Program-made: the position numbers and the translations under genes
In this document: piece after piece, positions 2 through 6,032 of the stretch
Layout: every line of letters starts with the position of its first letter
Position numbering within the stretch: position 1 is the first letter of the stretch
Source: a bacterium
GTDB taxonomy: Bacteria > Blakebacterota > Blakebacteria > Blakebacterales > Blakebacteraceae
DNA length: 6,032 bases
Assembly: GCA_025774615.1 (NCBI GenBank)
Contig: JALGVQ010000170.1
Coordinates: forward strand, 1-6,032
Reading direction: 5' to 3'
Notes under the pieces: model-generated
What the model was told of the DNA's origin: nothing
What the model saw: only the letters and a program-made list of their open reading frames with translations
Databases searched by the model: none

Positions 2-937
2 GTGACAGTCCTCATCACCGGCGGGATGGTCGCGGTCGTCCTGGATTACATGGGGATATCACTGGCTCGAACGGCGGCGATTGTCTTCATCATCGCCGGC
101 CTGAGTGCGGCGGCTCCCCCCGTGAGCCTCTGGGCCATGATGACCGCCGCGGGTGTGAACATGCCCTACATAGGGTTCTTCCTCCCTCTGCTGATCCCGT
201 GTGTTGTGGCCGCATTGCTTACGATCTTCATCCTGGGTTGGAAGGGTGGGGAGATCGATCTCGACAGGGCTCTCGCTGAACTTCCCGTTCCCCCGGAGAA
301 GATGAACCTGTGGCGGGTCGTCCTTCCGTTCATTCTCTTCGGGTTCCTGATCTTCATCGGCCGGAAGTGGCCCCACTCGACGCCGATCATCGGATTACCG
401 CTGATGTTCCTCTGCGCGGCTGTGGTCTCATACTTCCTGTCGCCGGTGAAACTCGATCTGATCAGGATCGCTCGTGAAACCATGGAGCAGCTCCTGCCGC
501 TGATTGCAACGCTGACCTGCGTCGGGATCCTGGTACAGATCATGACCCTGACCGGAGTACGGGGATTGCTGGCGGTCACGACTGTCACTCTGCCGATCGC
601 GATCGTTTTTGCCACCCTCTTCCTGATTCTGCCGGTCTCCGAGGCGGTGCTGATGTGGGGAGCGGCGCCGGTCATCGGAGTACCGCTCATACTCCTTTTC
701 AACACCATGGGACTGAATCCGATCATCGCCCTGGCAGGGATGAGCATCATCTGGCCCCTGGGTGACGCGCTTCCACCGACAGCCATCATCGGACGGCTCA
801 CGGTGGATGTTGTCGGGTATCGTGAATCGTATATCAAGTTCCTGAAGAGTTGTATCGTGCCGGCGGTCATCATCATGATCATCGGTACGCTGATGGTGGT
901 CTACTCGAGCAAACTCTCCTTCCTGACGGGAGTCTGA
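2..937 (+). CDS. TRAP-type large permease (DctM-like), C-terminal part, 5' end outside window
   Basis: This is an integral membrane permease, probably the large subunit of a TRAP-type transporter or a near relative in the ion transporter superfamily, importing an organic anion across the inner membrane. The 311 visible residues are mostly hydrophobic helices. Two matching halves can be seen: a Pro-Pro hairpin at residues 39-40 (SAAAPPVSLW) followed by a helix ending near residue 80, and a second at 258-259 (GDALPPTAIIGRL) followed by a helix ending near 301. This two-fold repeat is typical of the superfamily. DctM proteins usually have about 425 residues, so roughly 100 or more N-terminal residues should lie upstream. 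The GTG at base 2 is therefore probably internal. No substrate-binding protein or ordinary DctQ small subunit is visible. The substrate cannot be read from the sequence; a different family of the same superfamily is possible. Confidence 0.72.
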   Translation: MTVLITGGMVAVVLDYMGISLARTAAIVFIIAGLSAAAPPVSLWAMMTAAGVNMPYIGFFLPLLIPCVVAALLTIFILGWKGGEIDLDRALAELPVPPEKMNLWRVVLPFILFGFLIFIGRKWPHSTPIIGLPLMFLCAAVVSYFLSPVKLDLIRIARETMEQLLPLIATLTCVGILVQIMTLTGVRGLLAVTTVTLPIAIVFATLFLILPVSEAVLMWGAAPVIGVPLILLFNTMGLNPIIALAGMSIIWPLGDALPPTAIIGRLTVDVVGYRESYIKFLKSCIVPAVIIMIIGTLMVVYSSKLSFLTGV

Positions 938-940
938 GCG

Positions 941-1105
941 ATGGGTATCCTTATGACGATCATCACGGTCATCTACTATCTGCTGATAGCGGCGGTATGC
1001 CTCATTCTGATCACCAACCTGATCAGGGAACGGAAGTGGGAGAAGGAGATCCTCTACATCGTGGTTCTGATGCCCTTCCTCCTGCGTCTTCTGAGACTCA
1101 AGTGA
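941..1105 (+). CDS. 54-residue membrane miniprotein next to the permease
   Basis: This short gene starts with ATG only 3 bases after the permease stop codon. It has a GGGAG ribosome binding site at 928-932, 8 bases before the start. The product begins MGILMTIITVIYYLLIAA and has one clear membrane helix at about residues 5-27. A charged stretch follows (RERKWEKE, about 29-36), then a second hydrophobic stretch at about 38-51 that could be a short helix or an amphipathic segment. The tight coupling suggests translation with the permease and a role as its accessory subunit. A normal TRAP small subunit is about 160 residues with four helices, so this is not an ordinary DctQ. I do not recognise the family. 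The gene is supported by spacing, ribosome binding site and membrane-protein composition. Confidence 0.7.
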   Translation: MGILMTIITVIYYLLIAAVCLILITNLIRERKWEKEILYIVVLMPFLLRLLRLK

Positions 1106-2389: not shown

Positions 2390-4084
2390 GTGAAACAACG
2401 ATTCCCTGGTAACGTCACGAAGTGGTTCTGTCTTGTGGTCACCCTCGCGGTGATTGCGGGACCGCAACCTGCGAACGCCCAGCTCAATCCCGACCTCTAC
2501 CAGCTCGATCAGATTCTCACGCCCGAGTTCCTGGAGACTGGTTGCACGAGCATCATGGTGGGCAGGCTGGCCACGGTCGACGGATCAGTCATCACCTGTC
2601 ACAGCTGTGATGGCAATTACCGGACCTGGCTCAACATCAATCCCGCCAGGGAGAATCCGGTGGGCGCGTACCGGTCGGTGTACTGGGGATTGTTGCACAC
2701 CGAGACCCCCTGGGACATGTACCGCGTCAGGCTCAAGGGTGAGATCCCCGAAGTCGAACAGACCTTTGCCTACATGAATGTCGCCTACCCCTGCATGAAC
2801 GAGAGGGGACTGGCGATCGGAGAGACCACCTTTGGTGGGAATGCGGAATTGCGCAACGACGAGGGATTGTTCCTCATCGAGAACCTCCAGGCGATCGCCC
2901 TGGAACGATGCTCGACTGCCCGTGAAGCCATCAAGCTCATCGGGGAACTGGTCAAGGAGTTCGGCTATGGAGATCGCGGAGAATGCCTCACCTTCGCCGA
3001 CGCGAAGGAGGTCTGGCATTTCGAGATCATGGGAGCCGGCCCGATGGAGGTCGGAGCGGTCTGGGCCGCGGCACGGATCCCCGACGACCATGTGGGAGTC
3101 TCGGCGAACATCCCCCGGATCAGTGAACTCGACCTGAACGATCCCGACAACTACATGGCTTCTGATAACGTCCACTCACTCGCCGAGGAGATGGGGTGGT
3201 GGGATCCTTCGAGCGGCGAACCCTTCAAGTTCTGGAAGGCGTATACCAGCCGGAACAGCCAGGGTGTTCCCCGCAAGCCTTTCTCCACCCGGGAGTTCTT
3301 CATCCTGAGTACCATGGCTCCCTCACTCAACCTCTCGATGGACATGGACGAGCTTCCCTTCTCGGTGAAGCCCGACCAGAAAGTGTCGGTCCAGGATGTG
3401 TTCGCCTACTACCGGCAGACGTATGAAGGCACCGACCTCGATGCGTCGAAGAACCTGAAGGTTGCGGGCCGCGGCCGGGGACGCCCGGGCCAGACGACCA
3501 CCGCTCCCCAGCCTGCGGCGGTTACCAGCCCGTCGGTCAATAACTGGAACCTCGGTGGGGATATGGGCAGACTTCTGAACACCTTGCAGCCGGGTGCCGT
3601 CCAGTCACAGCGGACAATCGCCATCTCGAGCTGTTCCTATTCACAGGTGATCCAGTGCCGTGACTGGCTTCCGCCCGAGATCGGTACCGTGGCCTACTTC
3701 TCCTTCGATAACCCGGGACAGAGCCCGCGGATCCCGATCTATGCCGGGGTTCTGGAACTGCCTGACAGCTTCGAGTACTGCGGTCAGAAGAAATTCCGCA
3801 CCGATTCGGCCACCTGGTGGTTCCGGCGGGCAAACCGCCTCTCGATGATCAAGTGGGGCGCGACTCGCCAGTACATCGAGGGCGCGGTGATGAAGTTCGA
3901 AGAGCGAGCTTTCGAGGAGCAGCCGTTCATCGAAGCCAGGGCGGTAGATCTCGCTAAGAGTGACGGCCGGGAGGCGATGAGGGAGTATCTCACCGACTAC
4001 ACCAACCGCTTCGCCAGATCGGCGATGCAGGAGTGGTGGGAGCTCGGCGACTTCTTCTTCTCCATGTTCGCTCGCGGCTGGTAG
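2390..4084 (+). CDS. Exported family C69 (PepD-like) dipeptidase
   Basis: This 564-residue protein is a cysteine N-terminal nucleophile hydrolase of peptidase family C69, whose members cleave dipeptides. From the GTG start it has a signal peptide: a basic start (KQRF), a hydrophobic core at about residues 12-24, and a likely signal peptidase I site after Ala-Asn-Ala (28-30). Family hallmarks follow: GCTSIMVGRLATVDGS with the presumed nucleophile C52, then a CHSCDG segment, NERGLAIGETTFGG, and near residues 423-435 the CRDWLPPEIG block followed by FDNPGQSPRIPIYAG. C52 lies about 21 residues past the predicted signal cleavage, so a second processing step would be needed to expose it. At about residues 356-385 a low-complexity linker rich in Gly-Arg and then Thr/Pro/Ala/Ser interrupts the domain. 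It lies 82 bases after the M14 hydrolase, and the pair suggests extracytoplasmic peptide breakdown. The family call is firm; the substrate is not. Confidence 0.85.
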   Translation: MKQRFPGNVTKWFCLVVTLAVIAGPQPANAQLNPDLYQLDQILTPEFLETGCTSIMVGRLATVDGSVITCHSCDGNYRTWLNINPARENPVGAYRSVYWGLLHTETPWDMYRVRLKGEIPEVEQTFAYMNVAYPCMNERGLAIGETTFGGNAELRNDEGLFLIENLQAIALERCSTAREAIKLIGELVKEFGYGDRGECLTFADAKEVWHFEIMGAGPMEVGAVWAAARIPDDHVGVSANIPRISELDLNDPDNYMASDNVHSLAEEMGWWDPSSGEPFKFWKAYTSRNSQGVPRKPFSTREFFILSTMAPSLNLSMDMDELPFSVKPDQKVSVQDVFAYYRQTYEGTDLDASKNLKVAGRGRGRPGQTTTAPQPAAVTSPSVNNWNLGGDMGRLLNTLQPGAVQSQRTIAISSCSYSQVIQCRDWLPPEIGTVAYFSFDNPGQSPRIPIYAGVLELPDSFEYCGQKKFRTDSATWWFRRANRLSMIKWGATRQYIEGAVMKFEERAFEEQPFIEARAVDLAKSDGREAMREYLTDYTNRFARSAMQEWWELGDFFFSMFARGW

Positions 4085-4097
4085 TCGAGGGTTCAGT

Positions 4098-4808
4098 ATG
4101 AACGGATCTGAGAAGCCTCAGAAGGATCCGGGGTTGGAGAAACCGCCCCGGATCCTGATCGTGGACGATGTTCCGGTGAACATCGCCATGGTGCAGGCGC
4201 TGCTCAAGAGCGAGGGGTATGAACTGGTCTCCGCAGAATCGGGGGATGAAGCCCTCAGATCGGTGGAGGAACAGGTCCCCGACCTGATCCTGCTCGATAT
4301 CCAGATGCCCGATATGGATGGGTATGAAGTCTGCGAGCGTCTTCGTAAGAATCCCGAGACCGAAGGCGTTCCGGTGATCATGTTCACCGCGACCGAATCT
4401 GCATCGGAGGCGAAGGCGAAGGGGCTGCGGATCGGAGCGAACGACTATGTGACAAAGCCGGTCGCGAAGGATGAACTGCTTGCCCGCATCGAGACACAGT
4501 TGCGGCTCAAAGTGCTGGAGAACCAGCGCCTCCTTACCGAACAGCTCACCCTCATCAATCAGATGGTGACCACTCTCCACCACGAGATAAACAATCCCCT
4601 GACAGGGATCCTCGGATATACCGATATGCTGCTGGATAAAATGAGCCGGAAGGTCGTTCCGCTGGACGAGATAGAGAAGGCTTTGGTCACAATCCGTGAT
4701 GGCAGTCGGCGTATCCGGGATGTGATGGTCAAACTGAAGGAAGTCACCATACCAGTCGTGGAGGACTATTCAGCCGGTACCAGCATGATCGATATAGAGG
4801 AGAGCTGA
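4098..4808 (+). CDS. Receiver-HisKA signalling protein lacking a kinase ATPase domain
   Basis: This 236-residue cytoplasmic protein has a CheY-like receiver at about residues 17-135. The acidic pair is D23-D24, the phosphoacceptor is D67 in LLDIQMPDMDGYE, and the conserved Thr and Lys are T97 and K120. A linker helix follows, then a histidine kinase dimerisation domain (HisKA) at about 150-215. Its H-box is HHEINNPLTGILGYTDMLL, with H162 the likely phosphoacceptor. The protein ends about 20 residues later in an acidic tail (VEDYSAGTSMIDIEES), so the HATPase_c domain is absent. The sequence after the stop is tRNA-like and does not resume the frame. It could be a phosphorelay intermediate, a partner for a separate kinase, or a phosphatase. 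It starts 13 bases after the C69 gene, with GAGG at 4087-4090 as ribosome binding site, so it is probably cotranscribed. Confidence 0.85.
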   Translation: MNGSEKPQKDPGLEKPPRILIVDDVPVNIAMVQALLKSEGYELVSAESGDEALRSVEEQVPDLILLDIQMPDMDGYEVCERLRKNPETEGVPVIMFTATESASEAKAKGLRIGANDYVTKPVAKDELLARIETQLRLKVLENQRLLTEQLTLINQMVTTLHHEINNPLTGILGYTDMLLDKMSRKVVPLDEIEKALVTIRDGSRRIRDVMVKLKEVTIPVVEDYSAGTSMIDIEES

Positions 4809-4844: not shown

Positions 4845-4884
4845 ACCTGCAGGTCGCAGGTTCGAATCCTGTCCCCGCTACAAA
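4845..4884 (+). pseudogene. tRNA 3'-end fragment (T-arm and acceptor strand)
   Basis: A T-arm can be folded: GCAGG (4856-4860), loop TTCGAAT (4861-4867), CCTGT (4868-4872, one G-U pair). A 7-base acceptor-like strand CCCCGCT and discriminator A (4880) follow, then CAAA in place of CCA. AGGTC just before matches a standard five-base variable loop. No matching AGCGGGG 5' acceptor strand and no D-arm occur upstream, where the receiver gene ends at 4808. The wording resembles the 3' half of initiator-type tRNA-Met (a degenerate CTCAGAAACCTG where CTCATAACC.. is usual), but that identity is only a guess. It is best read as a remnant or attachment-site copy rather than a working tRNA. Confidence 0.6.
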
Positions 4885-4897
4885 CTTAACCTGCGAC
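4853..4897 (+). repeat. tRNA-like repeat, copy 1
   Basis: The 15-base core GTCGCAGGTTCGAAT (4853-4867) occurs again at 5094-5108. It is followed by CCTGCGAC at 4890-4897, the exact reverse complement of the first 8 bases of the core, with 29 bases between. It overlaps the tRNA 3' fragment and touches the terminator stem. Confidence 0.75.
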
Positions 4898-4933
4898 GCC
4901 GGCCAGATTCGTTCTGAGCCGGCGTTGTTGTTT
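4896..4933 (+). terminator. Intrinsic (Rho-independent) terminator
   Basis: ACGCCGGC (4896-4903) pairs perfectly with GCCGGCGT (4918-4925). The stem continues as CAGA (4904-4907) with TCTG (4913-4916) after one bulged A, closing a TTCGT loop. A T-rich run, TGTTGTTT, follows directly. It would end transcripts of the upstream operon, or may originally have served the tRNA whose 3' end lies 12 bases before it. Confidence 0.85.
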
Positions 4934-5093
4934 ATAAGACTTTATGAGCGATATGTGTCACCTGTGAGTAGAGCTTCTCAAGCACTCTCGGACTACTCTA
5001 TTACGATTCTGTCACTCTTAGAAATCTGCTCCGAAATCCCTCTCGATATAGATGGGATAATGGCTGAAGGGGTATGCGGCTAACCAGGAGCGC

Positions 5094-5134
5094 GTCGCAG
5101 GTTCGAATATACCTCAGGCACCCTGACCTGCGAC
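5094..5134 (+). repeat. tRNA-like repeat, copy 2
   Basis: The second copy of GTCGCAGGTTCGAAT (5094-5108) lies 241 bases after the first. Identity stops exactly at the end of the T-loop: the next bases are ATACCTCAGG, so the T-stem cannot close. CCTGCGAC again follows, at 5127-5134, after 25 bases. The upstream flank (GGCTAACCAGGAG) only loosely resembles an anticodon arm. This is consistent with a second, more decayed attachment site. Confidence 0.65.
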
Positions 5135-5325
5135 GGGATTAGTGAGATTCAGGCTGATTGCACAGGGCACAGTACATATATACACACCCCCTCCCACCAC
5201 GGCAGCACAGCTGGTAGGTCTGGGTCTTCTGATGGGCTATCGGGAATCCAGTGGATATCTCGATAGGGAATGGGAATATGTCTCCGAGCGCAGAGAAGGT
5301 ATTACGGAGGCCCTTAAGCGGCCCG

Positions 5326-5345
5326 AGGGGTATCTGAATACCCCT
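5326..5345. repeat. Perfect 8-bp hairpin with tetraloop
   Basis: AGGGGTAT (5326-5333) and ATACCCCT (5338-5345) are exact inverse complements around a CTGA loop. No T-run follows on either strand, so it is not a standard terminator. It lies about 90 bases beyond the transposase stop codon and could belong to the end of that element. Confidence 0.5.
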
Positions 5346-5435
5346 AGAACGCTCGCGTGTCTCCCGTGACTTTCCCTAATCACCGATTTTCGCAGAGGTT
5401 TAACCGTCATAGCAATATAAGAATCCTGAGTGGGG

Positions 5436-6032
5436 TCACTTGAATCTCAGCTGGAGTTTGGCGTCAAATCCAGGCACTACCATCGGCAGGTTTTGCCAGT
5501 CTACACGGCGCAATATGGGATTATGGGCCCGGCGGGGATAGGTCACGATGACCGTGTTATCCTTGACCGACACAGTCCCTTTTCCTTGAACGAAGTGGCG
5601 GTAGAGCTTCGGGGCATCACAATGTTCAAACCCGCGCAGTTTCTGCGCGAGCATGGTGTAGAGCGTATCGGCAATCATGGTCATGGCCACATCGAAGTGG
5701 ATCTTCACCAGAATCGGGGAGGAGAGCGCGTTGAGGTGGAAGAACTTCACCGCCTCCGCGATACCGGATTCCACTCTCCATCTGCGGGAATAATTGCCCA
5801 CCACCAGTTCCACCGGCATGTCAAAGTCATTGGTGATGAGGAAGGTCGGCTTCTCGCGACCGTGTCCGCGCACAACGACCTGACGCAGGTCACCCTCGTA
5901 GCCGCGCAACTCGATCAGGGAATCGTGTATCACCGGGTTCCGGTATTTGCGCTTCGGGTGAGGGATCTCGATGCGCTTCCACGGACTCAGCTTCTCCACT
6001 GCCCCGATCAGGTTCTTACCACGACGCCGCAG
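5436..6032 (-). CDS. DDE transposase, IS4 superfamily, C-terminal part
   Basis: The minus-strand frame is open to the window edge, giving 198 residues of the C-terminal part. A GTG at 5999 is available but the frame continues upstream of it (LRRRGKNLIGA), so it is probably internal. The hallmark is TNDFDMPVELVVGNYSRRWR followed by VE, which matches the TND...Y-x-x-RW-x-x-E block of IS4-type enzymes. E88 is the third catalytic acid, with Y81 and K96 completing a YREK-like signature; the E-to-K gap is one residue longer than the classic form. The first two catalytic Asp residues may lie wholly or partly outside. The protein would cut and join the ends of its own insertion sequence. The frame has no internal stop, so the copy may be intact. 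The subfamily cannot be assigned. Confidence 0.8.
   Translation of the reverse strand: MRRRGKNLIGAVEKLSPWKRIEIPHPKRKYRNPVIHDSLIELRGYEGDLRQVVVRGHGREKPTFLITNDFDMPVELVVGNYSRRWRVESGIAEAVKFFHLNALSSPILVKIHFDVAMTMIADTLYTMLAQKLRGFEHCDAPKLYRHFVQGKGTVSVKDNTVIVTYPRRAHNPILRRVDWQNLPMVVPGFDAKLQLRFK
5436..6032 (-). mobile_element. Insertion sequence, partial, borders not defined
   Basis: The transposase gene implies an insertion sequence running off the right edge. Its left end should lie within a few dozen to about 150 bases left of 5436, but no terminal inverted repeat or target duplication can be confirmed because the other end is not in the window. The coordinates given cover only the coding part. Confidence 0.6.

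Follow-up and report, generated by a model that had tools for sequence, protein, structure and literature searches.

Why does the core of a tRNA T arm occur twice in a small non-coding patch of bacterial DNA? The window considered here (the whole stretch of DNA analyzed, 6032 bp) constitutes one entire contig, C241, of a fragmented MAG (G000; 3.3 Mb, 324 contigs, 82%-complete). The closest named genomes for its C69 peptidase gene are Gemmatimonadota MAGs, and the permease-like protein encoded farther upstream exhibits up to 80% protein identity to Gemmatimonadota MAGs. As judged by ORFs and Pfam matches, the window carries, in order, genes for a permease-like protein, a small ORF, an AstE-like protein, the C69 peptidase and a response regulator with a HisKA domain (4098-4808, plus strand; PF00072 and PF00512), followed by the non-coding patch and a DDE transposase fragment. 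This fragment (IS4/IS701-like; 5436-6032, minus strand) is truncated at the contig end and was identified by its ORF and by a weak Pfam match slightly under the cut-off.

A truncated initiator tRNA in a non-coding patch

An earlier note on this locus, made from the letters alone, had described two copies of a 15-base T-arm core, the first in a foldable T arm with an acceptor 3′ strand but no 5′ tRNA half, and the second losing identity at the end of the T-loop, with an insertion sequence beside the patch. Each of these observations holds. The 15-mer GTCGCAGGTTCGAAT is found exactly at 4853-4867 and 5094-5108; a search of all 3.3 Mb of the genome gives a single further match (C281:4823-4837) and none to its reversed control. 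Shuffles of the window yield an expectation of 0.2 matches to the 15-mer with up to 3 mismatches permitted. Rather than being scattered without a link to tRNA, the 15-mer is tRNA-linked and restricted to three genomic occurrences.

By its sequence, copy 1 is genuinely the 3′ end of a tRNA. It corresponds to the last ~30 nucleotides of initiator tRNA-fMet (4851-4880, plus strand), as evident by its identity to an intact gene and by the fold of its T arm. The copy includes the end of the variable loop, the T arm and the 3′ strand of the acceptor, and the 5′ half is absent. The T arm reads GCAGG-TTCGAAT-CCTGT, with the stem formed by 4856-4860 and 4868-4872 and the loop spanning 4861-4867, and is followed by CCCCGCTA; the acceptor 3′ strand CCCCGCT occupies 4873-4879 and the discriminator A is nucleotide 4880. 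The full tRNA that carries this 3′ end, for which the earlier note had proposed a search, is the intact initiator tRNA-fMet of the same genome (C174:8924-9000; TGCGGGGTGGAGCAG...CCCGCTACCA), to which copy 1 is 97% identical over 31 nucleotides (4851-4881). A functional tRNA gene in the window is ruled out because a complete cloverleaf is absent: no complete tRNA fold covers the patch, ARAGORN reports zero tRNAs or tmRNAs in the window, and Rfam yields zero tRNA-family matches there up to E = 1.

Two features were added to this picture, namely 10-bp inverted partners at both copies of the core and a strong hairpin at about 4893-4929. The inverted partner of the copy 1 core, AACCTGCGAC (4888-4897, plus strand), is 100% complementary to 4853-4862 over 10 bp. 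Copy 2 (5094-5108, plus strand) is an exact match without an acceptor strand, in which divergence begins immediately past the T-loop, such that only the 15 bp of the core are present. It sits in the 10-bp dyad CGTCGCAGGT/ACCTGCGACG (5093-5135, plus strand, with the inverted partner at 5126-5135), which was recognized by dyad search, shuffles and folding. Two 10-bp dyads are observed at the 15-mer core, whereas shuffles give 0.007 on average. The 15-bp second copy and the two dyads are statistically real.

The hairpin 3′ of the tRNA tail (plus strand) is rich in G+C and terminator-like. Folding of nucleotides 4885-4935 gives −28.1 kcal/mol (z −7.3), and homologous hairpins are present behind the tails on C226, C215 and C102 described below. 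A simple terminator scan makes no call on this hairpin because its T tract is interrupted.

Related tails at other loci

With the patch or the intact gene as query, searches reveal truncated tRNA-fMet tails elsewhere in the same genome (C281:4820 and C255:8823), along with an acceptor-only remnant at C226:3976. Two more truncated tails reside on C215 and C102 of G001, the genome of a sister species in the same genus. The C281 tail follows a membrane-protein gene downstream of clpC and has the same type of terminator as the intact tRNA-fMet gene. C102 represents the orthologous place, as evident by the identical protein end DYSAEGML ahead of both tails; therefore, the collection amounts to about three independent loci, or four with C255.

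The tails share a left breakpoint at tRNA position ~45 despite having different left neighbors, save for C281 and C102. To the left of GGTC, all four copies measured match the intact tRNA at only 11-17 of 45 nucleotides. At C281 and C102, the left neighbors are chromosomal genes and not the end of an island. On the 3′ side, a G+C-rich hairpin is found behind the tails of the window, C226, C281, C215 and C102; those of the window and C281 were folded, and both are strong. Initiator-tRNA tails are thus dispersed in this uncultured lineage, mostly with a hairpin behind them, and go unreported by ARAGORN and by the Rfam tRNA model.

Sequence similarity extends beyond the hairpin. A leader is common to C255, C226 and C215, and the leader in the window is common to C215 and C255. 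On C215 the start of a Ser/Thr kinase gene comes after the tail, and on C255 a broken kinase start comes after an inserted KamA-like gene. Nucleotides 5255-5375 of the window (plus strand) are homologous to the kinase gene leader behind the C215 tail, and partly to that of C255; the local alignment scores 61 against a shuffle mean of 25 (z 11.8), and 0 of 500 shuffles reach 61. Because the window copy shares both its hairpin and its downstream leader with other copies, it looks less like a bare displaced tRNA tail than like the start of a module that was duplicated or moved. From these alignments, the window resembles a decayed C215 module into which about 250-320 bases have been added, copy 2 being located among them.

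A clean 241-bp element bounded by the two cores was also considered, wherein arms TCTGGGTGCCTG/CAGGCACCCTGA would lie 37 nucleotides apart and form a 12-bp dyad in the circle. Such arms are only weakly improbable, and this model is conceivable at most, given that the additional segment should be ~250-320 bp long according to the leader homology.

Additional remnants are evident at two of the other loci. On C226 (region 3948-4030), an inverted remnant of the sequence downstream of tRNA-fMet (TTTTGACGGTATAGA) lies to the left of the acceptor remnant, and two more CCCGCTAC-like ends are present behind the tail on C215 (300-450).

Proposed attachment-site relics and competing explanations

Crossovers in tRNA genes take place at one of three positions: anticodon loop, T-loop and T/acceptor junction. 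The integrating element brings along a tRNA fragment that restores the gene (PMC4383910). T-loop and T/acceptor-junction sites form a standard class (PMC4383910), and the tRNA fragments to which integrations of this type give rise are predicted to be widespread (PMC9897764). The fragment in the window starts reproducibly at the T-loop crossover class, in that the left boundary at position ~45 is common to independent contexts. It resembles the displaced attR fragments of tRNA-targeting islands in the T-loop/T-acceptor junction class (Islander, PMC4383910; PMC9897764), which likewise are tRNA 3′ ends that span the variable loop through the acceptor strand while the full gene is elsewhere. Unlike those cases, no integrase was found to connect gene and fragment, which are on different contigs here, several fragments are dispersed, and a hairpin and leader accompany the tail.

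A similar arrangement is seen in the Mycobacterium prophage prophi91-4 (M. abscessus, MW584206), which carries CCCAGAGGTCGCAGGTTCAAATCCTGTCCCCGCTACTAGGT, an fMet 3′ end, at both of its ends (7-38 and 58464-58495), the left one being immediately followed by a terminator-like hairpin; its tyrosine integrase is encoded at 123-1412. Its att core matches the tail in the window in comprising an fMet 3′ end from the variable loop, with almost the same tRNA start, and then a terminator-like hairpin. However, prophi91-4 belongs to another phylum and is an intact prophage with a tyrosine integrase and a core at each end. Because the fMet tails start near the tRNA position at which the prophi91-4 core starts, and are mostly followed by a hairpin, relics of att cores provide the best reading of these sequences. 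It therefore seems somewhat probable that copy 1 is the relic of an attachment-site core of the T-loop class, derived from the 3′ end of initiator tRNA-fMet.

According to this proposal, elements that integrate at the fMet T-loop would carry the tail (about position 45 to CCA) and then a terminator, so that the tRNA gene would work again after their integration. Tails and terminators could be left behind between genes at several loci where an element inserted off target, accreted or was lost incompletely. Within the window, the tail would head a decayed module composed of tail, hairpin and kinase-gene leader, with the extra bases that hold copy 2 and an adjoining IS element, and copy 2 would probably be a second core half-site from such an event. 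The tRNA identity, the intact parent gene, the recurrence of the tails, their common left breakpoint and the shared hairpin and leader are observed directly, whereas we infer the recombinase-mediated origin, the insertion at secondary sites and the role of copy 2 from the architecture of the loci. Taken alone, the feature in the window is a relic, and tails of this kind look like the leftover docking sites of site-specific mobile elements, which are a known kind of scar.

The earlier note had suggested that the patch is a likely scar of a tyrosine-recombinase type of element. The tRNA 3′ end and the intact parent gene agree with this assignment, but no integrase or element gene was recognized by ORFs and Pfam in the window or beside any tail examined, and no empty-site relative was found with this fragmented and incomplete MAG. 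Its further suggestion of repeated insertions is plausible given that truncated copies with a common left breakpoint recur. The chromosomal left neighbors of C281 and C102 count against the attachment-site reading. PF00589 matches in the genome are XerC, XerD and one recombinase that adjoins an IS91-like transposase. Because the window fragment and the intact tRNA-fMet gene reside on different contigs, they cannot be matched up as opposite ends of a single island. The response regulator of the window does not come after the C69 gene in Gemmatimonadota relatives, and the response-regulator relative in G003 has no tail downstream and flanks that are not alignable.

Other recombination systems were examined as well. 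Identity of the window feature as an integron attC site or cassette array was rejected, as the genome has no integron integrase above the cut-off. G001 has an integron integrase (TIGR02249, 490 bits) at the end of contig C400 (4178-5164), whose neighbors look chromosomal, and there are no tails on that contig. A large serine recombinase (CcrB/XisF-like) with flanking 24-bp inverted repeats is encoded on C293 of G000 (about 314-2539); it was dismissed as the cause because both the core and the arm motif are absent from its contig. The Dehalococcoides ssrA island arrays have a known serine recombinase module, and none of their repeats is farther than 100 kb downstream of ssrA (PMC3146451). These arrays are similar in that there are many copies of an RNA-gene 3′ end per genome and that some islands are without an integration module, but the fMet copies described here are dispersed and no dedicated recombinase has been identified.

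Segmental duplication is a less probable explanation that nonetheless merits some weight. A kinase gene might once have been situated directly behind tRNA-fMet, and the upstream region, cut within the tRNA gene, might then have been copied with kinase paralogues by ordinary recombination, with no site-specific recombinase involved. This would account for the downstream sequence that the window, C215, C255 and C226 share besides the tRNA tail, and for the kinase gene start after C215 and its broken counterpart after C255. However, the left breakpoint coincides across loci with different left neighbors, and C281 and C102 have no leader behind their tail and terminator. A common breakpoint could still arise if one truncated ancestor was copied repeatedly and its left flank was replaced each time.

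It is quite unlikely that the tails are retained as functional 3′ elements, wherein selection would preserve the T arm, the CCA-like end and the hairpin because they signal where transcripts of the upstream gene terminate or are processed. The tails of C281 and C102, in orthologous places, are 93% identical over 43 nucleotides between species, versus about 80% for adjoining coding DNA. This difference is odd for a dead scar and, as a sequence comparison, leaves room for selection or gene conversion; the strong hairpins behind the window and C281 tails also fit a functional role. However, gene conversion from the intact tRNA would likewise keep tails alike, the C226 and C255 tails are decayed, and the tails on C215 and C255 are located on the 5′ side of divergent genes, where no terminator for an upstream gene is needed. 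A chance double encounter with a T-arm-like 15-mer is very improbable, for even though GGTTCGAAT is part of many tRNA T arms, the 15-mer is confined to three places in 3.3 Mb, copy 1 matches the fMet end across 31 nucleotides, and each copy lies within a 10-bp dyad that shuffles almost never give.

Arrays with tRNA-Val 3′ halves

Contigs C200 and C283 of G000 carry about 11 co-oriented repeats of 70-200 bp that alternate with one or two genes. Most of these sites contain an exact or near-exact 3′ half of tRNA-Val(TAC), and the motif GTGTGCCAGATATGTGCCA is located upstream in most of them; a few consist of the motif without the tRNA-Val half. The Val-type sites are near 802-999, 2700-2814, 5056, 7084-7179 and 7730-7810 on C200, and at 607-625, 692-891, 3348-3453, 6857-7054, 9961-10100, 13509-13631 and 14718-14796 on C283 (minus strand). 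Genes between the sites encode Fic, a PAS kinase, beta-propeller proteins, a patatin and a thioesterase. An integron attC nature of the Val sites was rejected upon inspection by eye, in which no RYYYAAC/GTTRRRY ends were seen.

This organization resembles an integron-like or tandem-island array without a recognized recombinase. It is also reminiscent of the ssrA island arrays in Dehalococcoides (PMC3146451), except that no recombinase is known for it. Literature searches confined to one library yielded no paper recognized as a description of tRNA-derived integron-like arrays. We consider it unlikely, albeit worth stating, that tRNA tails in this Gemmatimonadota-like lineage (fMet in the window, Val on C200 and C283) are used repeatedly for recombination by a cassette system resembling integrons, in which single genes or gene pairs alternate with ~11 co-oriented sites, most of them composed of the arm motif and a tRNA-Val 3′ half, and a putative recombinase acts in trans. 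If a recombinase were found, the lineage would be a test case for tRNA tails becoming reusable cassette sites.

On contig C52 of G000 (642-1 and 871-948, minus strand), an intact tRNA-Val(TAC) is followed by an arm-like motif and then by a Ser/Thr kinase gene; the arrangement is like that of the C215 fMet tail in that a kinase gene follows in each. By sequence comparison, this arm-like motif shares the 11-mer GATATGTGTCA with the window (4950-4960, plus strand), and the wider similarity is not significant. The 11-mer was rejected as proof of a recombinase shared between the window and the Val sites, given that the similarity surrounding it has a z of 0.3. In two genera, one and the same patatin gene is immediately preceded by a tRNA-Val tail (C283, 14690-14830, and C100 of G002, about 790-850), and therefore at least one Val site is old.
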